Made by a program: the position numbers and the translations under genes. Of a DNA stretch of 64,000 nucleotides, positions 621 to 60,185 are shown piece after piece; the first letter of the stretch is position 1; the number at the start of each line of letters is the position of its first letter. The DNA lies in the NCBI GenBank assembly GCA_003669605.1, contig QWOP01000085.1:1-64000 (forward strand), read 5' to 3'. The notes below the pieces were generated by a model. The model was not told where the DNA came from. It was given only the letters and a program-made list of their open reading frames with translations, and did not search any database. Origin of the DNA: Planctomycetota bacterium (GTDB taxonomy: Bacteria; Planctomycetota; Planctomycetia; Pirellulales; UBA1268).

Positions 621-1550
621 TCAGATATGTAACGCACCGGTTGCGTCGATCGGCCCCCCTGAGGCAAGCCAGCGTGCGCACTCGGGACCGAGTTCCGCCA
701 CGGCACGCTGTTCGTACGCCGCCGCCTCTTCCGCGGTGAGCGTGTCCTTCCAGCGTCCGTTCTGCCCCTTGTTGATAAAGACTTCTGCCCCCGCATCCCA
801 GAAGGAGCCACCGAGAGGAACAGACTTGGTGGCGTTCTGCTTCATCCACTCGAACGAACAGTGCTCGAGAATCTTCTCCCAGGCTGCTTCGTTGATCGTC
901 ATTTGCAGAAATTCAGCGATCCGGCGGATCTCTCCGGGCATATCTCGCTTCAGATCGGAGAAATGGACGAATTTCACGTTGGGAAGGTGGCGAATCTGCC
1001 ACCAACTGCGGATGTTCTCCCAGAAGGACCAGAAGGGGTGCCCGTCCCGGTCCATCCAATCGCTGAAGTACTGCCTGATGGCAGCCGGAGGAGGCTCGAT
1101 GGGCGGGCCGATCCGTCCGGGGGTGTCATTGAGCGCGTCGTACCACGACTGATTGGCGTTGACGTGGTGGTTGTACATGCTCCACACCACATCCCGGCCG
1201 TCACGGCCGATATAGAGATATCGAGCCTGCGGCGAGAATCGCAGCGCATCTACCGGCAGATGCGTCTTGAGGAAGCGGCGGTGGGTTTGGGCCTCCACGA
1301 GCGGCAGTTTGACCTCCTTCGGCGGCACGCGGAGGTCGAGCCAAGGAGACAATTCCGCGACGGCCAGATTCGGATCCCCATCGAAGAGGAGCTGGCCGAT
1401 GATCTGCTGCATCCAAGTCGTGCCTGACTTGGCGTAGGTGGCGATCACGATGTCGTCGTCGCGGAACACAAGATCGTTCCAGATCGTCGAGTCGAAGTGA
1501 TGGTTCTGAAATTCCCTGGTTTTACGCGGCCATGCAACGATGTCGGCCAT
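621..1550 (-). CDS. Sulfotransferase family protein
   Basis: Predicted PAPS-dependent sulfotransferase of 309 aa. These enzymes transfer a sulfuryl group from 3'-phosphoadenylyl sulfate to a hydroxyl or amine acceptor. The 5'-phosphosulfate loop YAKSGTTW is at residues 39-46, and the 3'-phosphate-binding RDGRDVVWSMYNH segment follows about 75 residues later, both in the order usual for the cytosolic type. I chose the ATG at 1550 because GGGGAG sits six bases upstream; an in-frame extension to 1649 lacks such a site and overlaps transposon debris. The acceptor substrate cannot be read from the sequence. It lies between two sets of insertion-sequence remnants and may have been acquired horizontally. 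Confidence 0.85.
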   Translation of the reverse strand: MADIVAWPRKTREFQNHHFDSTIWNDLVFRDDDIVIATYAKSGTTWMQQIIGQLLFDGDPNLAVAELSPWLDLRVPPKEVKLPLVEAQTHRRFLKTHLPVDALRFSPQARYLYIGRDGRDVVWSMYNHHVNANQSWYDALNDTPGRIGPPIEPPPAAIRQYFSDWMDRDGHPFWSFWENIRSWWQIRHLPNVKFVHFSDLKRDMPGEIRRIAEFLQMTINEAAWEKILEHCSFEWMKQNATKSVPLGGSFWDAGAEVFINKGQNGRWKDTLTAEEAAAYEQRAVAELGPECARWLASGGPIDATGALHI

Positions 1551-1703
1551 GGATTCTCCCCGTGGTGTCCTCGCGGATAGCCGACGAACAACCGCCGTCT
1601 TTCTCAACTGTTCCGCACTCGCGACCGTCTTTCGCGGCGAGTGTTTCAAGCGTATCCAAAGCCGGCCTCAGTCAGAAGCCCGATCCTCCCCCGCCTCCCC
1701 CGG

Positions 1704-2297
1704 AGCCGGTGCGCGGAGCACGGTGTCAAAACCATCGTGCCTCCATGGGCCGGAAAGCACTCTCGCTTCACGCTCCTCTTCGAGGCCTTCGCTGTCGAAG
1801 TTCTGCAGGCTTGCCGCACCGTGAAAGCAGCGGCTGCGCTGCTCGGGCTCTCCTGGGATGCAGTGCAGACGATCATGGACCGCGCCGTGGCACGCGGCCT
1901 CGAGCGCCGCGAGGCCACGCCCATCAAGCACATCGGCATCGACGCGAAGAGCTTCGGGAGAGGCCAGGACTCCATCACCGTCCTCACCGATCTCGACGGC
2001 TCCCGTGTCCTCGATGTCGCTCCGGAACGTACGCAAGTGGCCGCTGGAAGCGTCCTCGCGACGCTCACCGTCGAGCAGCGGCAGAAGGTGTGTGCCGTCG
2101 CTGCCGACATGCTTCCCGCGTATGCCCAGGCAGTGGCCACGCAGACGCCGAACGCCGAGCGTGTTCACGACAAGTTCCATGTCGCCAAGCATCTCGGGGA
2201 AGCCGTCGATCAGGTGCGAAGGGCGGAAAACAAGGCCCTTCAGGCCGAGGACGACGACCGGCTCAAGGGCACCCGTCAGCTCTGGCTCTTCACTTGA
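1704..2297 (+). pseudogene. ISL3-family transposase remnant, truncated at both ends
   Basis: The translated segment matches the middle of ISL3-family DDE transposases. It opens at a CAEHGVKT zinc-finger tail, continues through the helix-turn-helix-like KAAAALLGLSWDAVQTIMDRA, then shows the first catalytic Asp in HIGIDAKSFGRG and the second in HDKFHVAKHL. The N-terminal zinc-finger half is missing, replaced by unrelated low-complexity sequence from the preceding gene's upstream region. The frame stops right after RLKGTRQLWLFT, before the segment that carries the catalytic Glu. About 195 of the usual 400 or more residues remain, so it cannot encode an active transposase. The surviving codons show no internal stops, suggesting recent decay. 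Confidence 0.8.
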
Positions 2298-3024
2298 AAA
2301 ACTGGCGTCATTCAGGGGGGGCAGTTCACGCAAACTTGCAATGCGACAAGGGAACGGTATGTCGCCGTTGCCGAATCAGATGGGCCACCGTAGATCTTCA
2401 GGAGGCCAATCCAGTAATGGAGGTGGCGAGGTTCCCGTTGGCTTCAATGTCCTCTCCCTGAACACCATCCCCGGGAGCGGCGCACTCGCCAGCCCAAATT
2501 CACCGCTCTTCTTGGTCAACGTCCAGAAAGGCTTCGAACTCGGAGATGACTTTCTCGTCGGGATCGGCACCCAGTGTGGCGAAAAGACCGGGTCGGCTCC
2601 CACAGGCGTCAGGCTCGCCGACTTTACCTGGATGACCCTGTCCGCGAGGCTCCCTGACGAATGGGGGCGACTGTACGCCGGGCCCTACTACGGAATCGAT
2701 CGTTGCCTCCCGAAAGTCTTGCCGCGCATCACATGGGCTTCACATGAAACTTTCGTCGGCCGCACCCGTTCAAAGGCTGTAGAAGCACCGCCGGAACGCG
2801 CTGCACTTTTCAACCGGCGTTCATAAAACAGTCGTGAGGGCGTCGTGCTTCAGAAAACCAAAGGTGTTGGGAAGAGAAATCGCCCCGGGATGCCGTGCCC
2901 CTCGCTGCCAGACGCCCCGGCTCCTGTCGGGACTGCAAGAGTCTTGCATCGACCCCGCCGATCTGCTCCGCACCTTCGCATCACCTCCAGGCTATCTCCA
3001 TCCCTCCGCCACAGGGAATCACCC
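2298..3024. other. Degenerate region between transposase remnant and DUF1559 gene
   Basis: No gene can be supported here. A plus-strand frame stays open to 2826, and its last codons lie in the third IS-end-like repeat (2798-2824), but it shows no family motif. The minus strand is partly open at 2376-2603, also without a motif. The likely explanation is residual transposon sequence. Positions 2830-3024 should hold the promoter of the DUF1559 gene, but I cannot point to convincing -35 and -10 boxes. Confidence 0.35.
2798..2824. repeat. Third copy of IS21-like terminal repeat
   Basis: The sequence begins GCGCTGCACTTTTCAACCGG and ends GCGTTCAT, nearly identical to the copy at 122-148 and in the same orientation. 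With the copies at 85-148 it brackets the sulfotransferase gene and the ISL3 remnant. Confidence 0.55.
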
Positions 3025-4011
3025 ATGCGACAACGCCATCCTGGCTTCACGCTCGTCGAGCTCCTCGTCGTGATCGCCATCATCGGCACCCTGGTGGGGT
3101 TGCTTCTGCCTGCCGTTCAAGCGGCCCGCGAGGCAGCGCGGCGGTCGCAGTGCTCCAACAACCTCAAGCAGATGTCGCTGGCCCTGCTGAATCATGAGTC
3201 GGCCAGGAAAAAATTCCCACCGTTCTCCATTCTTCCCCGCACCTCGACCTTCGACCCCTTTTCGGCGCAGGTGCGTCTTCTCCCCTATCTCGAACAGGGC
3301 ACCATCGCCTCCCTCATCGACGTCAGCGGTCAGGTGCCATTCACGGCCCACCCCGAGGTTGCCCAGATGCGGATTTCTCAATTCATCTGTCCCTCAGAGG
3401 CCAACGACAAGCAGCGTGTCACCCCTACGCTCGTTCACTACCCGCTGAACTACTGTTTCAACGAAGGGACGTGGTTCATCTACGATCCTGTCAGCGACAC
3501 TGTCGGCGACGGCGCCTTCGCGCCGAACCGCAGCTATCGGATTGCCGACATGATCGATGGCACGAGCAAGACGCTGGCGATCGCGGAGTGCAAGGCCTAC
3601 CAGCCGAACCTCTGGGACTCGAACACTCCCGCCGGGCTCAATGTGCCGGCGCCTCCAACCCCCGACGCACTCTCCACCTATTTCGGCGGAACGTTCGACT
3701 TCAACGGCCACACGGAGTGGGTCGAGGGGGATGTCCATGAGACTGGCTTCACGACCACCTGTACGCCGAACGCCAAGGTCACGTACGTCAACGGTGGAGT
3801 CACCTACAGCGTCGATCTGACGTCGTCTCGGGACGGCGAATCGACGACCGCCCCCACCTACGCTGCCGTCACCGCCCGCAGCGGCCATCCCGGACTCGTG
3901 ATGACCGCTATGATCGATGGTTCAGTGAGTGCCGTATCGGACGATGTCGATCTGCTGGTGTGGCGGGCGGCCGGCACGAAAGCCGGCGGCGAGAATTATT
4001 CAATGCCCTGA
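3025..4011 (+). CDS. DUF1559 domain protein with prepilin-type N-terminus
   Basis: A 328-aa DUF1559 protein, a family strongly expanded in planctomycetes. The N-terminus has the type IV pilin-like methylation motif [15 protein letters not shown], with cleavage expected after Gly7 and Glu at mature position 5, followed by the family's [18 protein letters not shown] segment. The remainder is the exported DUF1559 domain, with the typical late DGTSKTL and a C-terminal GHPGLV...DGSV segment. It is probably a pseudopilin-like envelope protein; its molecular role is unknown. I use the ATG at 3025 because it places the prepilin motif at the N-terminus; the frame is open further upstream. The stop overlaps the start of the next gene (TGATG), implying translational coupling. 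Confidence 0.9.
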
Positions 4012-8569: not shown

Positions 8570-9598
8570 ATGCACCTCACGAGTGACACAGAGCAGGCTC
8601 CTTTACGCAGCGGATTTGTCGCGGTTGGGCATCATGGACTGCGACTGAGTTCTGGCGACGGAATCGATTGGGCCGCTGCGCACGTTGGGAAAGAGGGGGA
8701 GATGTATCGGGCTGTGGCATTTGGGAATGGACGGTTTGTGGCGGTCGGTTCGTACGGTGGAGCCAACATCTTTGCATCGACCGCGGATGGAGAAACGTGG
8801 GACACAAGCCGTCAGGATGCGGGGTATGTGAACTTCCTGCGCGGAATCGGGTTTGGAAAAGAGGAGTTTCTTGGATTGGGTGGAGATCCCGGCGCGGTGG
8901 GGGATTCCCGGCCGTTTGTGATGACGACGCCTGACGGAAAATCATGGAGCGCGGCGTCTCCTGTGCTGGTGACGCAGTCATTGCTGCCGAATTCCGCCGA
9001 TTCCCTAGGGGGTGCCAATCCGCCACCCTCAAGCAAGAACATGCTGCGACGGGTTGCGTATGGCAACGATCTGTTTGTGGCTGTCGGTGATCGGGGACGC
9101 CGTTCGGTGTCCCAGGACGCCAAAGCCTGGAGCGATGTGCCGAATGCGAAAGCGGTTGACACCCTGATTGACGTCGCGTTCGGCAACGGCGTCTTTGTCG
9201 GTGTCGGCTTGCATGGGCTGCGAACGAGCACCCGCGATGGTGTTACCTGGAGCGATCGAGTTCTTGGCGAGGAAGGGGAGCATATTAATTCCATCGTCTG
9301 GACCGGCGAACGGTTTGTGGCCGTCGGCCAGGGGGCAACGTTTTTCTCTGCGGATGGTCTGGCTTGGGAGCGGATTCCAACTATCAACTTCCCCCTGATT
9401 GCGGTATTTGGCGCGGGGGTTTTTGTGGGCTCGAATTGGCGTGGCCGGCTTCTCCGTTCCGCAGACGCTATCACCTGGAACGATGTTTTCCAGGCAGAGC
9501 ATCACGTGGAGGCGATCGCCTTTGGCTGGTGTGCCACGCGGGCCGCCTCCGCGGAGAGGTGTGACAGTTCGGCGTCGGACGTCACAGCAGTCGATTGA
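8570..9598 (+). CDS. Beta-propeller protein with seven FVAVG...DGxxW repeats
   Basis: A 342-aa protein built of about seven repeats of the form (R/V)FVAVG-x-xG-...-S-x-DG-xx-W, such as FVAVGHHGLRLSSGDGIDW, RFVAVGSYGG, LFVAVGDRGR, VFVGVGLHGLRTSTRDG and RFVAVGQGA. Seven blades of this length fit a BNR/sialidase-like or Ycf48-like beta-propeller. There is no evident signal peptide, which is odd given that both upstream partners are exported; a missed upstream start is unlikely because only three bases separate it from the DUF1552 stop. It is the third gene of the DUF1592-DUF1552 unit and probably co-transcribed. The ligand is unknown. Confidence 0.75.
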   Translation: MHLTSDTEQAPLRSGFVAVGHHGLRLSSGDGIDWAAAHVGKEGEMYRAVAFGNGRFVAVGSYGGANIFASTADGETWDTSRQDAGYVNFLRGIGFGKEEFLGLGGDPGAVGDSRPFVMTTPDGKSWSAASPVLVTQSLLPNSADSLGGANPPPSSKNMLRRVAYGNDLFVAVGDRGRRSVSQDAKAWSDVPNAKAVDTLIDVAFGNGVFVGVGLHGLRTSTRDGVTWSDRVLGEEGEHINSIVWTGERFVAVGQGATFFSADGLAWERIPTINFPLIAVFGAGVFVGSNWRGRLLRSADAITWNDVFQAEHHVEAIAFGWCATRAASAERCDSSASDVTAVD

Positions 9599-9717
9599 GA
9601 TACGGGCAGACCCCCGAAAGCCCGCCCGACGTCTGAATCGGATGGCAACAAGGTGGTGCTTGGCCATTGGTTCTCGTACAATGAAGATCTCTTCACGTTT
9701 CAGATGCGCAACCCACC

Positions 9718-10947
9718 ATGCAATCCACACTAAAAGCTCAACTCTCGTTCTTCATGTTCCTGCAGTATTTCATTTGGGGGTCGTGGTACGTCAGCATGGG
9801 GACGTATCTCGGCAAGGCACTTCATTTTGAAGGCGGGCAGATCGGCGCGGCGTATGGCGCATTTGCTCTGGGGGCGATGATCGCCCCGTTTTTCGTCGGT
9901 TTGATTGCCGACCGGTATTTCGCTTCGGAAAAGCTGCTCGCCGTTCTCGGTCTGGCGGGTGGTGGACTGCTGTTTGCCATCCCGCAATTGACGACGTTCG
10001 CGTCGCTCTATCCCGTGCTGATCCTTTACTGCGCGACGTTTGTGCCGACGCTGGCCCTAGGGAATTCGCTCGCACTGACGCATCTCGCCGATCCAAAGCG
10101 CGACTTTCCGCTGGTCAAAACGCTTTCCGCGGTGGGCTGGATTGCGGGGGGTGTCACGCTCAGTCTGCTGCTTCAAGGCGAGCAGTCGCCGGTGCAATTT
10201 TATCTGGCAGGCGCAGCTTCCATCGCCTTAGGGCTGTTTTCGCTGACGCTTCCTCACACGCCACCGATGAAGACCGGCAAAAACGTCCGTCTCGGGGAGA
10301 TTCTTGGCCTCGACGCGTTGGCGCTTTTGATGCAGCCGTCGTTCGCGATTTTTATTGCGTGCATGTTTCTGATCTGCATCCCGCTCTACTTTTACTTTGT
10401 CAACATGAACATGTATGTCACGGAGCTGGGCTGGACGTATACGGCTGCAAAAATGTCGCTGGCTCAGGTGTCAGACATCATCTTTTTGCTCTTGCTCCCG
10501 CTGATGCTGCAGACGCTCGGCTATAAAAAGACGATATTTATCGGGATCCTTTCCTGGGTGGTGCGATATTTCCTGTTGGCTTCGAGCGTCTCGAACGCGG
10601 GCTTCGCGACCCCGCTTATTTTTGGGGCCATTCTCTTGCATGGCGTGTGCTACGACTTTCTTTTTATCGCCGGGCAGTTGTATGTGGATGATCAGGCGAA
10701 TGAGCGGATGCGGGGTGCGGCGCAAGGGCTGATTGCATTTATCCTCTGGGGGGTGGGCGCATTTGTGGGCACGTACCTAGCTGGGCAATCGCAGGCGATG
10801 TATACGCTGGCTCAACCGCGCGGCGATATCGCCCATGACTGGTACGGCATCTGGATCTATCCGGCCTGGGGCGCCTTGGCGGTGCTGGTGGTCTTCCTCA
10901 TCTTCTTTCGTGATCCCCCCCCAAAATCCACTCAAGCCGTCCCTTGA
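9718..10947 (+). CDS. MFS transporter, nucleoside:H+ symporter family
   Basis: A 409-aa inner-membrane transporter with about twelve hydrophobic segments, resembling NupG-type nucleoside permeases (Nuc_H_symport). Family features include the N-terminal QYFIWGSWYVSMGTYL, the helix 2-3 loop GLIADRYFASEKLLA, and a late helix block YDFLFIAGQLYVDDQA followed by RGAAQGLIAFILWGVG. It likely imports nucleosides by proton symport, but substrate range cannot be read from sequence; planctomycete members often sit near catabolic genes. The ATG at 9718 starts at the first hydrophobic helix. It is separated from the propeller gene by 119 bases, so it may have its own promoter. Confidence 0.88.
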   Translation: MQSTLKAQLSFFMFLQYFIWGSWYVSMGTYLGKALHFEGGQIGAAYGAFALGAMIAPFFVGLIADRYFASEKLLAVLGLAGGGLLFAIPQLTTFASLYPVLILYCATFVPTLALGNSLALTHLADPKRDFPLVKTLSAVGWIAGGVTLSLLLQGEQSPVQFYLAGAASIALGLFSLTLPHTPPMKTGKNVRLGEILGLDALALLMQPSFAIFIACMFLICIPLYFYFVNMNMYVTELGWTYTAAKMSLAQVSDIIFLLLLPLMLQTLGYKKTIFIGILSWVVRYFLLASSVSNAGFATPLIFGAILLHGVCYDFLFIAGQLYVDDQANERMRGAAQGLIAFILWGVGAFVGTYLAGQSQAMYTLAQPRGDIAHDWYGIWIYPAWGALAVLVVFLIFFRDPPPKSTQAVP

Positions 10948-52579: not shown

Positions 52580-54883
52580 ATGGAGCCCCCCGTCCCGCTG
52601 TCGCCGCCGCCGCCCCAGCCTCCCCGGCAGGAACCGGCCGAGTCCGGCCCGGGGAACAGCGCTTTGCTGCCGACTGAGAAGCCCCGTGCCGGCGGCCGTC
52701 CGCGGAGTTTGGCGACGCCGCTGGAGCGATTGCCGGGAGTCGGCACGGCCCGGGCGGACCGCCTCAAACGCCTCGGGTTGGTGACGGCGGCGGACGCACT
52801 GATGCACTTCCCCCGCGACTACCGCGACTTCTCCGGCGCCCATCAGATTGCCGACATCGTGGCCGGCGAGCACGCCTCGATCGCCGGCGACGTCGTCGAT
52901 GTGACATCCCGGATCACCGGCGGCGGCCGGCAGATGCTCGTCGTCCGGTTGGCCTGTGCCCCGGGGAGCGTCCGCGCGGTGTGGTTCAATATGCCCTTCA
53001 TGGCAAAACGGTTCGCCGTCGGGCAGCGGGTCGTGATCGCCGGCCAAGCCAAGCTCGCGGTGGGGAAGTGGGAGTTTGCCCACCCGGAGGTCCGCTGGCT
53101 CCAGGCCGGGGAGCGGTCCGATGCCTCCGACTGGTTGGCCGTCTATCCCCTCGCTGAAGGCGTCCTCCAGTCGCACGTCCGGGCGGCGGTGCAGGCGGCG
53201 CTCGATCACGCCGCCGATCTCCCCCCAGAGGCCCTGCCCGAAGACCTCCTCCGCAGCAAGGAGTTGCTGCCGATCGACGTGGCACTCCGCGAAATCCACA
53301 TCCCCTCGAGCTACGGAATGATCGCCGCGGCACGTCGCCGCTTTGTCTACGAGGAGCTGTTCATGCTCCAGTTGGCACTGCGGATGCACCGTGGCCAGCA
53401 GCAGGTACGACGGGCAGCGCCAGCGATTCCCGTCGACGGTCGCATCGATGGCCGCATCCGTGCCAGGTTCCCGTTCGAATTCACGGCGGCCCAGGTGCGG
53501 GTCTGCGCTGAGATTGCCGCCGACATGGCCCGGTCGGAGCCGATGAACCGTCTCCTCCAAGGGGACGTCGGCAGCGGCAAGACGGCCGTCGCGCTCTACG
53601 CGATCCTCGCGGCGGTGGCGACCCGCGTGCCCGGGGCACCCGCCGATCCGCGTGGTCGATCGGTGGGCTATCAGGCGGCGCTGATGGCTCCCACCGAACT
53701 CCTCGCCCGCCAGCACGCCGCCACGCTTGAGCGGGTGCTCGCCGAGCAGGAGGGACGGCTGCGGAAAAGCGACGTGCGTGTGGAACTGCTCGTGGGGAGC
53801 CAGTCGGCGTCCCGTCGCAGCCAGGCACTGGAGCGAATCGCCAGTGGCGCCTCCAGGATCGTGGTCGGAACGCAGGCACTGGTCTGCGGCGGCGCCGTCT
53901 TCCGCAATCTCGCCCTGGTCGTCATCGACGAACAGCATCGCTTCGGTGTCGTGCAGCGAGGGATCCTCCAGCAGGACCACACCGATCCACATACCCTCCT
54001 CCTGACTGCCACGCCGATCCCGCGGACGATCGCCCATGCGATCTACGGCGAACTCGATGTCTCGATCCTCGATGGCGTGCCACCTGGCAGGCAGCCGGTT
54101 GCCACCTACCGTGTCGGCCACGACCAACTCGACGCGTGGTGGGACTTCTTCCGGCGGAAACTCAAAGAAGGCCGACAGGGATACGTCGTTGTCGCCGCCG
54201 TCGAGGAATCGAAGCGGGGATTGGAGAGCGTGTCGAGCGCCTACGAGCACCTTGCCAACGGACCGCTCGAGGCCTTCCGGTTGGGTTTGGTGCATGGCCG
54301 GATGCCGGCCAAGAAGAAACAGGCGGTGATGGAGGAGTTTCGCTCCGGGAGGATTGACGTCCTGGTGGCCACGAGTGTCATCGAGGTGGGGATCGATGTT
54401 CCCAACGCAACGCTGATGACGATCCTCGACGCCGAGGGATTCGGTCTCGCACAGCTCCACCAACTCCGTGGTCGTGTCGCCCGCGGCGCCGCGCGAGGGA
54501 TTTGCGGCGCCGTGACCGCCAGCCCCGCACCTGACAGCCCCGCCCCTGATGGTGCCGCCCCTGATGGTGCCGCCGCCGAAGACGCCGTCGAGCCCCATCC
54601 CCGCATCGATGCCTTCGTGGGCACCACCGATGGCTTCAAACTCGCCGAGCAGGATCTCCTCCTCCGCGGCCCGGGCGACCTCGTAGGGACACGGCAAAGC
54701 GGTGCGCCGCCGATGTATCTGGCCGATCTCCTCCGCGACGCCAAGGTGGTGGCTGAGGCCCGCCAGGACGCGATGGAACTCTTCCAGCGCGACCCCCGTC
54801 TGGAGGGGGCGGAACTGACGCGATTGCGGCAGTTGATCCACAAGCGTTGGGGAGAGACTCTCGGCCTTGGGGGGGTGGGCTGA
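52580..54883 (+). CDS. recG: ATP-dependent DNA helicase RecG
   Basis: A 767-aa RecG, remodelling stalled forks and Holliday junctions. The wedge domain starts at about residue 50 (LPGVGTARADRLKRLGL, MHFPRDYRD). Helicase motifs are GDVGSGKT (about 327-335), APTELLA (MAPTELLARQH), DEQHRFGV (near 450) and LLTATPIPRT, then VLVATSVIEVGIDVPNA and QLHQLRGRVARG. A proline-alanine-aspartate stretch with a tandem PAPDG-like repeat (bases 54520-54580, just after the RGRV motif) is an unusual insertion; standard RecG has a short conserved loop there. The ATG at 52580 is upstream of a Pro-rich extension of about 45 residues. Confidence 0.96.
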   Translation: MEPPVPLSPPPPQPPRQEPAESGPGNSALLPTEKPRAGGRPRSLATPLERLPGVGTARADRLKRLGLVTAADALMHFPRDYRDFSGAHQIADIVAGEHASIAGDVVDVTSRITGGGRQMLVVRLACAPGSVRAVWFNMPFMAKRFAVGQRVVIAGQAKLAVGKWEFAHPEVRWLQAGERSDASDWLAVYPLAEGVLQSHVRAAVQAALDHAADLPPEALPEDLLRSKELLPIDVALREIHIPSSYGMIAAARRRFVYEELFMLQLALRMHRGQQQVRRAAPAIPVDGRIDGRIRARFPFEFTAAQVRVCAEIAADMARSEPMNRLLQGDVGSGKTAVALYAILAAVATRVPGAPADPRGRSVGYQAALMAPTELLARQHAATLERVLAEQEGRLRKSDVRVELLVGSQSASRRSQALERIASGASRIVVGTQALVCGGAVFRNLALVVIDEQHRFGVVQRGILQQDHTDPHTLLLTATPIPRTIAHAIYGELDVSILDGVPPGRQPVATYRVGHDQLDAWWDFFRRKLKEGRQGYVVVAAVEESKRGLESVSSAYEHLANGPLEAFRLGLVHGRMPAKKKQAVMEEFRSGRIDVLVATSVIEVGIDVPNATLMTILDAEGFGLAQLHQLRGRVARGAARGICGAVTASPAPDSPAPDGAAPDGAAAEDAVEPHPRIDAFVGTTDGFKLAEQDLLLRGPGDLVGTRQSGAPPMYLADLLRDAKVVAEARQDAMELFQRDPRLEGAELTRLRQLIHKRWGETLGLGGVG

Positions 54884-54967
54884 GCCGCTGGGCCGTCGCT
54901 TTTTTAGGGGGGCTTCCCGCGCTGGTTTCCTGCGGAGAGAATTCAGCCTCCGCACCTCCCCAGAGCA

Positions 54968-55267
54968 ATGCCGCCGATGTACTACTTCGCGTACGGATTC
55001 AAGAAACTCTGCCCCCCGCTCTACGCCCTTCAGGTGGCCGAGCAGGCGCTGGTCAATGCCGGCTTTAGCGTCTTCGACCCTGTAGCGGCCGGAAAGGTGA
55101 CCCTCGGCGGCACGCAGGTAGCCGACGGTGCCATGGTCACGGTGGTGGCCATGGATTGCGAGGGGGGAGCCGCTGTGGTCGTCAACGGCTTCTGCGCAAG
55201 TGACATGGCAGTCGCTGCTGCCCGGACCTACGCCGAAGGGGTGGCCGGCGCCATCAATCAAGCCTGA
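54968..55267 (+). CDS. Small hypothetical protein (99 aa)
   Basis: A 99-aa protein with no signal peptide or membrane helix. It reads as an alternating alpha/beta domain (YYFAYGFKKLCPPLYALQVAEQALVNAGFSVFDP, then DGAMVTVVAMDCEGGAAVVVNG), which looks like a genuine small fold. Family not recognised. No clear ribosome-binding site precedes the ATG at 54968; the ATG at 54977 is an alternative. Confidence 0.55.
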   Translation: MPPMYYFAYGFKKLCPPLYALQVAEQALVNAGFSVFDPVAAGKVTLGGTQVADGAMVTVVAMDCEGGAAVVVNGFCASDMAVAAARTYAEGVAGAINQA

Positions 55268-55341
55268 ATGATCGGCCTGGGCATCTTCAGCACCAGCGCC
55301 GATGGCTAGGCTGATCAAGCCAAACAGGCCAATCAGGCTGA

Positions 55342-56493
55342 TCAGTCGTGGGCTGCCAAGGGCCCGCCCTGCAGCGCTGCCCCGCTCCGCCATGCCGTGC
55401 CGTCGCGCTCGACTGCGTGGTAGAGGGTGTCGCGCTCGACAGGCTCGCGGCCGGCCTCGCGGATCAGCCTTTGGATGTGCTCGACAGAGAGCACCTCCGG
55501 CGTGGTGGCGCCGGCATCGTGGTAGATCAGTTCGTGCCGCACCGTGCCGTCGAGGTCGTCAGCCCCGTAGGCCAGCGCCGCCTGGGCGGTGCCGATGCCG
55601 AGCATGATCCAGTAGGCCTTCACGTGGTCGAAGTTGTCGAGCACCAACCGCGACACCGCCATCGTCCGCAGGCTCATCGCCGCCGTCGGCTTGTGGATGT
55701 GGGAGAGGCGGGTGTTGTCGGGATGGAAAGCGAGCGGAATGAAAGTTTGAAATCCACCGGTCTCGTCTTGCAGTTGGCGGAGACGGAGAAGATGGTCGGT
55801 GCGGTGGAAGGCGTTCTCGATGTGGCCGTAGAGCATGGTGGCGTTGCTCCGCAGGCCGAGTGAATGAGCCGTGCGGTGGACATCGAACCAGGCCGCGGTA
55901 TCGGCCTTGTGTTCGCAGATCCGGTCGCGGACCTCGGGATGAAAGATCTCCGCCCCGCCGCCGGGGAGGCTCCCCAGCCCGGCATCACGCAGTTCGACGA
56001 GAATCTCCCGCACCGATCGCTTGGTGAGATGCTGGAACCAGTTGATCTCCACCGGAGTCCAGGCCTTGAGATGCAGGCAGGGATAGTGGTCGTGGAGGAG
56101 ACGGATGATGTTCAGGTACCAGTCGTAGTCTTTTTGGTGGTGAAGACCGCCGACAATGTGCATCTCCGTGCTGCCGGCGTCGACTGCCTCTTGGCCGCGG
56201 GCAAGGATCTGCTCGTCCCCCATGACGTAGCCCCGGGGGTCGCGGAGATCGGCACGGAAAGCACAAAACGTGCAGCGGTAGACGCAGACGTTGGTGGGGT
56301 TGAGATGGGTGTTGATGTTGTAGAAGCCGCGGTTGCCGTTTTTTCGCTCCCGGACACGGTTGGCCAGGGCACCGAGTTCGTGGAGATCAATCCGTTCGTC
56401 CCAGAGCATTTCCGCCTCGGCGGCATCCAGACGCACGCCGGCCTCGACCTTGGCGCGGACCGGTTCCAGGGATGGGGTGGCGGCACGGATCAT
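55342..56493 (-). CDS. mqnE: Aminofutalosine synthase MqnE (radical SAM)
   Basis: A 383-aa radical-SAM enzyme of the futalosine menaquinone pathway, joining a chorismate-derived 3-enolpyruvylbenzoate unit to SAM to give aminofutalosine. The [4Fe-4S] motif CVYRCTFC has Cys70, Cys74 and Cys77, and the family segments NPTNVC, GGLHHQKDYDWYL, LPGGGAEIFHPEVRD and NATMLYGHIE are all present. The ATG at 56493 has GGAGG seven bases upstream; an extension to 56529 is unsupported. The related CofH/MqnC enzymes lack parts of this pattern. It is separated from the ubiE-ubiX-ubiA operon by the Pnkp-like gene. Confidence 0.95.
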   Translation of the reverse strand: MIRAATPSLEPVRAKVEAGVRLDAAEAEMLWDERIDLHELGALANRVRERKNGNRGFYNINTHLNPTNVCVYRCTFCAFRADLRDPRGYVMGDEQILARGQEAVDAGSTEMHIVGGLHHQKDYDWYLNIIRLLHDHYPCLHLKAWTPVEINWFQHLTKRSVREILVELRDAGLGSLPGGGAEIFHPEVRDRICEHKADTAAWFDVHRTAHSLGLRSNATMLYGHIENAFHRTDHLLRLRQLQDETGGFQTFIPLAFHPDNTRLSHIHKPTAAMSLRTMAVSRLVLDNFDHVKAYWIMLGIGTAQAALAYGADDLDGTVRHELIYHDAGATTPEVLSVEHIQRLIREAGREPVERDTLYHAVERDGTAWRSGAALQGGPLAAHD

Positions 56494-56735
56494 GGGGAGG
56501 CCTCCGGGCTGGTGGAGCGAACACGACACTTGAGAGGTAACCGTAGCCGGCCTGTTTCAGCAACACGTCTGCCAAACTTCGGGGAATCCGCGCCTTAAAA
56601 TAGCGATTGCTGCCGGCAGACTGGCTCCCCAGCCGACGCCCGGGAGGCGAACGGGGTATCGTAGGGCAACGCGTTCCGCGCCGGTTTTCGAAGCCCCTGC
56701 CAGTCGCCTTCGGGCGGCTTTCCCGCCCCAGTTGC

Positions 56736-58583
56736 ATGCCCACGGCTTACGACATCATCGGCGATATCCACGGCTGCGATGCCGAGCTGGCCGAACTGCT
56801 GCGGCTCCTCGGCCACGGCGATCCGTTCTCCCCGCACAGCGGCCGGATGCTGGTCTTCGTGGGCGACCTGGTGGACCGTGGCCCGGCCACGCCGGCTGTC
56901 TTGGAGCGGGTGATGCGGCTGGTGAGGGAGGGCCGGGGCTGTTGTGTGGCTGGAAACCACGACGTCCGCCTCGCCGAGGCACTCCGCGGGATCCCCGTCG
57001 AACCGGGGCACGGACTGGAGCAATCGCTCGAGCAGTTCGCCTCCCGCCCCCACGCAGAGCGGATGGAGGTGTTGGCCTTCCTCGAATCGCTGCCCGGACA
57101 CCTCGCGCTTGACGGGGGGCGACTGGTGGTGGCACATGCCGGTCTGGAGGAGGCATTGCATGGAGTCGATTCCGCCGCCGCCCGCGAAGCCGCCATCCAT
57201 GGAACGTACACCGGAGCCTTCGACTCCCGTTGCATGCCGGTCCGGACTGACTGGGCGAATGACTACCACGGTGCTGCCGCTGTGGTCCACGGCCACACTC
57301 CGGTAGAAATTCCAGAGTGGTTTCACAACACCCTCTGCATCGACACCGGCTGCGTGTACGGTGGCCGGCTCACCGCGCTGCGTTGGCCGGAGCGGGAACT
57401 CGTGGCGGTGACGGCCGGCGGCACGTGGGGGAATTCGGCCCGCGGCGCGTTGCCGTTGCGGGCACAGCGCGAACCGACGGCCGAAGCAGTGCCCCTGCCG
57501 CAGGGGACCGCCACCGACGCCATCCGGGTGCTCCGTCGGCGGGCCGTGGAGATTCTTGCCGCCGCTTCCTCTCCGGATGATGCTCGTTCCGGGGCCAGCC
57601 CGACATCCAACGGGGGCCGTCCGCCTGCCGATCCCGCAGCCGACAAGCCTGCTCCGCTTGGTCGCTGGTTGATCCATCTTCCGCCGACGATGTCTGCCTG
57701 CGATCCCGGCCGGACCGCCGACGGGTTAGAGCACCCTCTGGGGGCTTTTGCCCATTACGCCTCGCAAGGGCTGCGGCGGGTGGTGTGCGAGGAGAAACAC
57801 TCCGGCGTGCGTGTGGTGGTGATCCTCTGCCGCGACCGGGCAGCCGCCCGGCGACGGTTCGGCGCTGATGCCCTGGGCGTGATCCATTCCCGTGCTGGCA
57901 GAAGGTTCCTTCCTGCGGCAGCCGAGCAGACGCTGCTCGGGGAGTTTGGCGTCGCCGCGGAGGCCGCGGGAGTGTGGCGTGATCTCGACACCGATTGGCT
58001 GTGCCTCGACGGCGAACTGCTCGGGGAACCGCTGGCCGCGGCGACGCGTCCCTTCCAGGTGGTGCTCTTTCACCTCCTGGCTGCGGAGAGGAGGACCTTC
58101 TTCGATCGCGACCATCCCTGGCATCTAGGACAACTCGCCCGGCTCGTCGCCGAGGGGGACGGCAGCCTCGTCGTCACCCCCCACAGGCTCGTCGATCTCA
58201 CCCGGCCGGTTGAAGTAGCCGGGGCAATTGCCTGGTGGCACGCGCTCTGTCTGGGGGGGGGCGAAGGGATTGTCGTCAAGCCGGTTTCGTGCGCAGGGTG
58301 GGGGGCTTCCGGCCCGGTGCAGCCGGCACTCAAGGTTCGGGGCGCGGAGTGGCTGCGCCGGGTGTATGGCGACGGCTACCGCGATCAAGCGAACTTCGAA
58401 CGCCTCCGACGGCGGAGCCTGATCGCCAAGCGGAGCCGGGCCCTGGGACAGTTCGCCCTCGGCATTGAGGGGTTGGAGCGGTTTGTGGAGGGCGCGGCAG
58501 ACGCCGAGGTGTGGGCCTGCCTCGTGGCGATGGAGGGGGGAATGCCGGAGGCTGGTCGATTCCCCGGTGCGGCCCCACCTTAA
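56736..58583 (+). CDS. Pnkp-like phosphatase-RNA ligase lacking the kinase domain
   Basis: A 615-aa protein matching two of the three modules of bacterial Pnkp (RNA end-healing and sealing enzyme). The phosphatase module starts at residue 1 with GDIHG (9-13), GDLVDRGP (43-50) and GNHD (73-76), typical of binuclear metallophosphatases. The C-terminal ligase (adenylyltransferase) module has motif I EEKHSG with Lys354, motif IV EGIVVKP (Glu510, Lys515), motif V ALKVRG (Lys533), and the Pnkp-type tail KRSRALGQFALGIEGLERF. The N-terminal P-loop kinase is absent: the protein begins at the phosphatase. No Hen1 gene is nearby. ATG 56736 starts at the phosphatase fold; no ribosome-binding site is obvious. 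Confidence 0.85.
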   Translation: MPTAYDIIGDIHGCDAELAELLRLLGHGDPFSPHSGRMLVFVGDLVDRGPATPAVLERVMRLVREGRGCCVAGNHDVRLAEALRGIPVEPGHGLEQSLEQFASRPHAERMEVLAFLESLPGHLALDGGRLVVAHAGLEEALHGVDSAAAREAAIHGTYTGAFDSRCMPVRTDWANDYHGAAAVVHGHTPVEIPEWFHNTLCIDTGCVYGGRLTALRWPERELVAVTAGGTWGNSARGALPLRAQREPTAEAVPLPQGTATDAIRVLRRRAVEILAAASSPDDARSGASPTSNGGRPPADPAADKPAPLGRWLIHLPPTMSACDPGRTADGLEHPLGAFAHYASQGLRRVVCEEKHSGVRVVVILCRDRAAARRRFGADALGVIHSRAGRRFLPAAAEQTLLGEFGVAAEAAGVWRDLDTDWLCLDGELLGEPLAAATRPFQVVLFHLLAAERRTFFDRDHPWHLGQLARLVAEGDGSLVVTPHRLVDLTRPVEVAGAIAWWHALCLGGGEGIVVKPVSCAGWGASGPVQPALKVRGAEWLRRVYGDGYRDQANFERLRRRSLIAKRSRALGQFALGIEGLERFVEGAADAEVWACLVAMEGGMPEAGRFPGAAPP

Positions 58584-58612
58584 ACACCCGTCACGCCTCT
58601 GCAATCGACAGG

Positions 58613-59554
58613 TCAGGCCCAGAGATCGACGGCGATCGCTACCAGGAGAATCATGCCGATAGTGGCGTTGGCGTTGAAGAACGCCTGATTGACGCGTGAG
58701 AGGTCATCTGGGCGGACGATCCAGTGTTCCCAGAGAAGGAGGCCCGCGATCACCACCATGGCTCCCGCATACACGCTCCCCAACGCCGGCACGACCAGCG
58801 GCAGAAGGGCCAAGAGCAGCACCGTGATCAGATGCAGCACCGCCGCCAACCGCAGGGCTCGTGCCACCCCCAGCCGAGCGGGAATGCTATGCAGGCCGTG
58901 GTCGGCATCGAAGCCGGCGTCCTGGCAGGCATAGATGATGTCAAACCCTGCCACCCAGGTCATCACGCCCAAGCCGAGGACCACCGCCGGCAGCAGGTCG
59001 GCCGGTTCGCGGAGCACCACCAAGCCGCGGAGTGCGATCCATGCGGCGACCGGCGCCATCCCCAGCGCCGCTCCGAGCCAGAGGTGGGCAAGCATCGTGA
59101 ACCGCTTGGCGTAGCTGTATCCCAGCAGCCAAGCGAGCACTGGCACCGAGAGCACCATCGGCAGCCAGTTGGGGAGAAAAAGGAGTGTCGAGGCGAGGAA
59201 CGCGGTGCAGGAAGCCACCACCAGAGCGAACACCTCGCCCACCCCCAGGTCGCCGCGTGGCAGGTGACGCGAGGCCGTTCTTGGATTGGCTGCGTCGATC
59301 GAGCGGTCAACGAGGCGGTTGAAGGCCATCGCCGCGGTCCGGGCGGTGATCATGCACAGAAGAATCCCCAGTCCGGCCCGCAGCCATGCTCCGGTGCTCC
59401 CCGTCACCCCGCCCAGATCGCCCCCCATCCGCAACGCTACCAAGCCCGCCATGACAGCGAACGGAAGGGCGAAGATCGTGTGGCTGAAGCGGACGAGTTC
59501 CAGGTACGGGCGGACCCCCGTTGCCGTCATCGCCATCCCGCGGTCATCGGCCAT
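58613..59554 (-). CDS. mqnP: UbiA-family prenyltransferase, likely MqnP
   Basis: A 313-aa integral membrane prenyltransferase with about eight hydrophobic helices. The first Asp-rich motif is NRLVDRSIDAANPRTASRH, and the second is DIIYACQDAGFDADHGLHSIP, as in UbiA/MqnP enzymes. In the futalosine route MqnP adds the polyprenyl chain to 1,4-dihydroxy-6-naphthoate; the presence of mqnE and of ubiX/ubiE next to it supports MqnP rather than UbiA of ubiquinone synthesis. The ATG at 59554 follows GGTGAGG; its start overlaps the ubiX stop by eleven bases. Confidence 0.88.
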   Translation of the reverse strand: MADDRGMAMTATGVRPYLELVRFSHTIFALPFAVMAGLVALRMGGDLGGVTGSTGAWLRAGLGILLCMITARTAAMAFNRLVDRSIDAANPRTASRHLPRGDLGVGEVFALVVASCTAFLASTLLFLPNWLPMVLSVPVLAWLLGYSYAKRFTMLAHLWLGAALGMAPVAAWIALRGLVVLREPADLLPAVVLGLGVMTWVAGFDIIYACQDAGFDADHGLHSIPARLGVARALRLAAVLHLITVLLLALLPLVVPALGSVYAGAMVVIAGLLLWEHWIVRPDDLSRVNQAFFNANATIGMILLVAIAVDLWA

Positions 59555-60185
59555 CCTCACCCCAGCGTTTCATGAGTGTGTTGGGTACGGCCAGCTGGTC
59601 GCAGATCCTGGCGACGAGAAAATCGACCAGATCGGGGATCGTGCGGGCGCCGGCGTAGAACCCCGGTGCCGCTGGGAGCACGACGGCGCCGGCCTCGTGG
59701 ATGGCCTGCATGTTTTTCAACTGTGGCAGCGAGAGGGGAGTCTCCCGGGGAACGACGACCAGCCGGCGCCGTTCCTTGAGGTGCACCTCGGCCGCCCGAT
59801 GGATGAGGTTCTCCCCCAAGGAGTGGGCTACCGCGGCCAGCGTGCCGCCGCTGCACGGACAGATCACCATCGCCTGCGTGAGGAACGAACCGCTGGCTAT
59901 GGGTGCCATCAGATCGCGGTGGTGGTGGTAATGGAGACGGCCGGGTGTTGCCGGCATCGCATCCAGGGAGGTTCCAAGGAGCACCGCCGGGTCGAAGCGG
60001 TCGAGATCGATGTTCCGGGAGAGCTCCTGGAGGATCACCGCCCGACCGGCCGGACTGATCGAGAGGTGGACGTCGCGGCCGGCGGCGAGCACCACCTCCA
60101 GCAACCGCACGGCATACACCGCCCCGGAGGCGCCGGTGATCGCTACCACGAGGGGCAAGGCGGGTGGATGGTGGTCGTGTGACAC
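59544..60185 (-). CDS. ubiX: UbiX-family flavin prenyltransferase
   Basis: A 213-aa UbiX-family enzyme that makes prenylated FMN, the cofactor of UbiD-type decarboxylases. Family features: GASGAVYAVRLLEVV at the N-terminus, the ASGS-like segment IASGSFLTQAMVICPCSGGTLA, GENLIHRAAEVHLKERR and ETPLS. In a menaquinone locus it supplies the cofactor for the decarboxylase acting on the naphthoate intermediate. GTG 60185 gives the full N-terminus and lies two bases after the ubiE stop. Middle gene of the three-gene operon. Confidence 0.92.
   Translation of the reverse strand: MSHDHHPPALPLVVAITGASGAVYAVRLLEVVLAAGRDVHLSISPAGRAVILQELSRNIDLDRFDPAVLLGTSLDAMPATPGRLHYHHHRDLMAPIASGSFLTQAMVICPCSGGTLAAVAHSLGENLIHRAAEVHLKERRRLVVVPRETPLSLPQLKNMQAIHEAGAVVLPAAPGFYAGARTIPDLVDFLVARICDQLAVPNTLMKRWGEDGR

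Follow-up and report, generated by a model that had tools for sequence, protein, structure and literature searches.

The closest described relatives of the protein considered here are the bacterial Pnkp enzymes, represented structurally by Clostridium thermocellum Pnkp (family TIGR04075; ligase structures 3ty5, 3ty8 and 3ty9, phosphatase structure 4j6o) and by the Pnkp-C/Hen1-N complex (4drf, 4e6n). The canonical ligase domain contains a helical insertion between motif III and the next strand, and, according to PMC4411300, which cites its refs 23 and 24 for the point, this insertion obstructs the ligase site and Hen1-N locks the site open. This insertion-lock/Hen1-unlock model is based on the structures and biochemistry of few proteins. 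The RNA breaks made by ribotoxins bear 5'-OH ends (PMC4411300).

The window, the whole stretch of 64,000 nucleotides that we analyzed, contains a gene (Table 1) that an earlier note had read as a Pnkp lacking its kinase. The ATG at 56736 opens a frame of 615 residues that runs to the stop codon at 58581-58583, and we take this ATG as the right start because conservation among congeners begins at M-P-x-x-(Y/F)-DIIGD. In Pfam the 615-aa protein matched Metallophos (6.6e-14) and, over the gathering score, PNKP_ligase (PF16542, 7e-89). Against NCBIfam TIGR04075 (bacter_Pnkp) it reached 588 bits, below the curated cut-off of 750 bits, with a match restricted to profile positions 181-604 and 680-838, positions 1-180 (the kinase) and 605-679 (the ligase insertion) being absent. 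As had been claimed, the protein opens with the phosphatase motif GDIHG, at residues 9-13, and keeps ligase motifs I (K354), IV (E510) and V (K533 and R535); motif III (E427) is also present. The UbiA-like gene downstream is followed by UbiX-like and UbiE-like genes. The gene at 56736-58583 encodes a genuine Pnkp-type phosphatase fused to a Pnkp-type ligase, without a kinase and without Hen1. The kinase-less reading stood as to the two modules and the missing kinase and Hen1, but it was incomplete, having overlooked the loss of the ligase insertion, a loss that shifts the meaning of the protein from a Pnkp without a kinase to a Pnkp apparently released from Hen1 control.

Table 1. Coordinates in the window of the two-module Pnkp, its parts and its neighbors.
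Feature	Position	Strand	Basis
Two-module Pnkp (phosphatase-ligase), 615 aa, ATG start	56736..58583	+	Domains; conservation and synteny in the genus
Pnkp-type metallophosphoesterase domain, residues ~4-227	56745..57416	+	Metallophos, 4j6o, Foldseek, conservation
Variable linker (residues 228-309), modeled in part with low confidence	57417..57662	+	pLDDT < 50 at 243-255 and 282-305
PNKP ligase (adenylyltransferase) domain, residues ~310-599	57663..58532	+	PF16542, 3ty8/3ty9, Foldseek
Short loop GEPLAAATRPF, residues 430-440, at the canonical insertion-domain site	58023..58055	+	93-protein alignment
Divergent upstream radical-SAM gene (MqnE-like by eye)	55342..56493	-	Syntenic in congeners
Convergent downstream UbiA-like prenyltransferase gene (by eye)	58613..59560	-	Syntenic in congeners

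The missing insertion was apparent from an alignment of 93 proteins, in which the two flanks of the insertion are separated by 75-96 residues in 84 insert-bearing Pnkps and by 15-17 residues in the eight rows from the genus; the same span in the Pnkp of Candidatus Thiomargarita nelsonii is 12 residues. A loop of 11 residues stands in place of the insertion domain, and the PF16542 match to the two-module ligase splits into positions 14-135 and 211-369, leaving 136-210 unmatched. Other pieces have gone as well: the genus has lost the ALEVMSRFA lead-in of canonical Pnkp ligases, the columns of which are 96-100% conserved elsewhere and the place of which is taken by the linker, and it has lost the C-terminal ESEPVDPRL tail. 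Several non-catalytic positions that are invariant in Pnkps differ in the genus, among them M356 and S358 of motif I, the context of which changes from KHMGSR to K(H/Q)(S/T)G(V/L/Q)R; insert-bearing Pnkps without exception have Met in this motif, where the two insertless lineages have Ser or Thr.

With respect to the kinase, an unfiltered search of all six frames of 54001-60000 with a profile built from 22 Pnkp kinases gave no match, and the positive control, the full-length Pnkp of a family member from another genus (G040), scored 267 bits; together with the TIGR04075 match that starts only at position 181, this bears out the earlier claim that the kinase is missing. The divergent gene upstream begins only ~240 bp from the ATG, a gap too short for a kinase domain. 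The genome (G000) is a draft, 84% complete, which could favor an artefact, with a kinase masked by a frameshift, a misassembly or a wrong start, but the same architecture and neighbors recur in at least eight other assemblies, and the sensitive profile found no kinase in any frame, alternative upstream readings and early starts included, while its control worked. We therefore give this explanation practically no chance of being right.

If the kinase is not fused, it could be supplied separately. The ends left by ribotoxins (PMC4411300) would normally call for a kinase, and this genome encodes P-loop kinase-like proteins; both points speak for a split system, in which canonical repair would persist with an unrelated 5' kinase acting in trans and an unrecognized activator in place of Hen1. 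However, the Pnkp kinase profile found no separate Pnkp-type kinase in this genome, and the best AAA_33 matches inspected look metabolic, with L032 resembling shikimate kinase or gluconokinase (Pfam SKI) and others judged by eye to be shikimate, adenylate and APS kinases. Furthermore, the best match of the congeners to the kinase profile, an APH-AAA_33 fusion, had no matched counterpart in this genome, and no kinase neighbor was present within the syntenic block. We consider such a split arrangement unlikely, with the proviso that, this genome being 84% complete and its relatives draft assemblies, a kinase or Hen1 of unrecognized type could escape detection. Another RNA ligase, RtcB, is encoded in the genome.

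Among 12 genomes of the genus, the two-module gene is present in this genome and eight congeners, two more contain fragments, and it is absent only from G030. Wherever the contigs of the congeners extend far enough, it occupies a fixed chromosomal place between the radical-SAM gene and the UbiA-UbiX-UbiE genes. The radical-SAM neighbor is 86-89% identical across congeners where whole; the protein of the window is ~61-64% identical to the other orthologues. Across 8 orthologues dN/dS was 0.22-0.39 (~0.23 as a single figure), indicative of purifying selection; in view of this and of its fixed genus-wide place, the gene is neither a frameshift nor an artefact of metagenome assembly.

These data also bear on the proposal that the gene is a decaying relic, a canonical Pnkp that shed kinase and insertion on its way to inactivation. 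Loss of RNA-repair genes does occur in this genus, as the absence of the gene from G030 and a canonical remnant of 42 residues in G025 and G027 attest. Purifying selection, open reading frames, invariant catalytic residues and synteny throughout the genus nevertheless make decay highly improbable.

In the phosphatase domain D10, H12, D44, R48, N74, H75, H134, H187 and D203 are kept, and the last seven are invariant in all 93 aligned Pnkps, as are K354, R359, E427, E510, K515, K533 and R535 of the ligase. From the motifs and from established knowledge of both superfamilies, we take these invariant positions to be the catalytic residues. The phosphatase domain was matched by 4j6o, the corresponding domain of C. 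thermocellum Pnkp (1.1e-61), and the ligase domain by 3ty8 and 3ty9. An AlphaFold model, with a pLDDT of 85 when 93 sequences were supplied and 57 with 8, had 3ty8 (ligase) and 4j6o (phosphatase) as its best structural matches; Foldseek gave an rmsd of 2.2 Å over 361 columns for the former, the C. thermocellum ligase domain, and 4.5e-25 with a TM of 0.83 by target for the latter.

The phosphatase is also related to PrpE and ApaH, and the PrpE model matched it at 2.5e-51, below its cut-off. It could be proposed that the enzyme has been repurposed outside ribotoxin repair, such that the ligase would mainly cap 5'-phosphate RNA with adenylate, or join some other substrate, and the ApaH/PrpE-like phosphatase would remove such groups. 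The long stem branch of the genus (1.0-1.45 changes per column) and the changed context of motif I suggest altered constraint, the chromosomal place is fixed, and PADLOC returned no defence-family match for the two-module Pnkp, all of which would fit. Against this, the sealing motifs, including IV and V, are invariant, and Pnkp is nearest in both fold and sequence, so that we regard such repurposing as quite improbable. Given the long branch and the altered non-catalytic positions, the chemistry or the substrate may nonetheless have shifted.

No Hen1 gene is present at the locus, as the earlier note had stated, and in all 12 genomes of the genus, this one included, nothing scored over the curated cut-off of the Hen1 profile TIGR04074. 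The few weak matches in the genus span the methyltransferase half only, and the one in this genome (L071) proved to be a generic methyltransferase. A second Hen1-type model, PF22032, was also negative in the genus, but this result counts for little, as the model fell below its cut-off in all control genomes, in one of which TIGR04074 exceeded its own. Elsewhere the association is close: the one full-length Pnkp of the family, in G040, has Hen1 adjacent, and among the best 80 genome_contigs loci ~75 of the 78 that clearly bear the insertion carry Hen1 within the fetched DNA.

Surveys for similar proteins gave a consistent picture of rarity. In a sample of 392 genomes from the phylum, the split, insertless pattern occurred in one of 44 PNKP_ligase-positive genomes, namely this one, and among the PNKP_ligase-positive genomes of a 397-genome sample of the order it was confined to the genus. 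A 378-genome sample around T. nelsonii yielded it in T. nelsonii only, and the same organism held the sole insertless Pnkp among the best 80 genome_contigs loci. The two-module form itself was found in none of those 80 loci and in neither viral contigs nor phages, plasmid matches being judged by span only. The proposal that two-module Pnkps are widespread was therefore rejected, the surveys of the phylum, the order and the T. nelsonii phylum having returned only the genus and the insertless T. nelsonii protein. In the open-access literature, to which our search was confined, we found no earlier account of a bacterial Pnkp that lacks the kinase or the insertion.

Several other candidates were set aside. 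L077 appeared insertless by phmmer, but alignment revealed a divergent insert, and Hen1 is also present; L044, L054 and L093 appeared kinase-less, seemingly because the frame is broken or the contig ends there. In the last of these (Verrucomicrobiales RYN_621), the kinase (698-1360) and the phosphatase-ligase (1364-3334) lie in adjacent frames, either as a split gene or through a frameshift. Order-mates of family f3 (L235:1316-3811, L236, L237 and L244) encode very divergent Pnkp-like proteins of ~830 aa with kinase, phosphatase and ligase; these weakly similar proteins retain the kinase and an insertion-like stretch, and L235 adjoins a Hen1-type protein matching PF22032. A viral contig (L198:4455-7007, IMGVR_UViG_2225789004_000003) carries a complete Pnkp of 851 aa with kinase and insertion.

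The T. nelsonii Pnkp (L076, 5425-7746) has an intact kinase, and its insertion is gone; a further T. nelsonii locus is L196 (G463:C76, ~9479-10399). The Hen1 of T. nelsonii is a frameshifted remnant without profile positions 27-125. The insertless Pnkps of T. nelsonii and of the genus sit on separate branches of the tree, and these two independent cases, a small number, support a tie between loss of the insertion and loss of Hen1 and do not prove it. The insert loss and the Hen1 remnant in T. nelsonii may in part be assembly errors.

With regard to origin, G025 (L233:1502-1666, G025:C175) and G027 (L234:7115-7279, G027:C56) each contain, at a locus separate from the two-module gene, a frame of 55 codons, the final 42 residues of which correspond to the C-terminus of a canonical Pnkp. 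Because this remnant includes ESEPVDPRL, which is missing from the two-module protein, the sub-lineage probably once had a canonical Pnkp that has since been lost, the two-module gene being retained. Six other planctomycete contigs (L238-L243, from G993, G973, G858, G424, G322 and G1131) have a lone Pnkp 3' end of 30-65 residues, some of them near contig ends, which suggests that the repair operon was repeatedly deleted with its 3' end left behind. When the tree was rooted with outgroup phosphatases the long branches met, and nested and sister placements of the genus among Pnkps were not separated; the parsimonious reading is that loss of the insertion is the derived state.

Taken as a whole, the gene probably specifies a Pnkp-derived phosphatase-ligase that works on RNA without Hen1; its activity, RNA substrate and independence from Hen1 we infer. 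The metallophosphoesterase domain would take off a 2',3'-cyclic or 3' phosphate. Open by default for want of the insertion and requiring no Hen1, the ligase domain would self-adenylate with ATP and join the resulting 3'-OH to a 5'-phosphate end, and the repaired RNA would carry no 2'-O-methyl mark. The kinase-less anatomy implies, in line with the earlier note, that the 5' phosphate would be pre-existing on the substrate or supplied by a separate, unrelated kinase. Somewhat more tentatively, we propose that this lineage dropped the autoinhibitory flap of Pnkp along with Hen1 and the kinase, giving a constitutively open, seal-only enzyme for RNAs that are phosphorylated at the 5' end and blocked at the 3' end, and that insertion and Hen1 were lost together, independently, in Thiomargarita. 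In these Hen1-less genomes, nature seems to have deleted precisely the Pnkp lock, which predicts that the ligase is active alone. If that is true, bacterial RNA repair would be separable from 2'-O-methyl immunity, and the protein could find use as a compact tool that combines phosphatase and ligase. A further question is then which RNA breaks in the cell bear a 5' phosphate together with a 3' or cyclic phosphate.

Compared with the systems already described, the planctomycete protein resembles C. thermocellum Pnkp in having a phosphatase and an adenylyltransferase domain in the same order, with the same fold and active-site residues, but is without the N-terminal kinase, the ligase insertion, the lead-in, the tail and the Hen1 partner. 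Its ligase domain is homologous to Pnkp-C of the Pnkp-C/Hen1-N complex, yet the element that Hen1-N locks open there is deleted here, and Hen1 was not found. The Pnkp1-Rnl-Hen1 system of Capnocytophaga gingivalis (PMC4411300) likewise heals and seals bacterial RNA ends with an ATP-type ligase; there, in contrast, a stand-alone ligase bears an insertion domain, the phosphatase belongs to another superfamily, and both kinase and Hen1 are present. PrpE- and ApaH-type phosphatases share the phosphatase fold and motifs, whereas the planctomycete phosphatase is fused to a ligase and falls below the curated cut-offs of both families. The T. nelsonii Pnkp shares the loss of the insertion at the same place, the change of the motif I Met to Ser and a broken Hen1; it differs in retaining the kinase and the C-terminal tail, in additionally lacking EYLRIIYGP, and in belonging to a separate branch.
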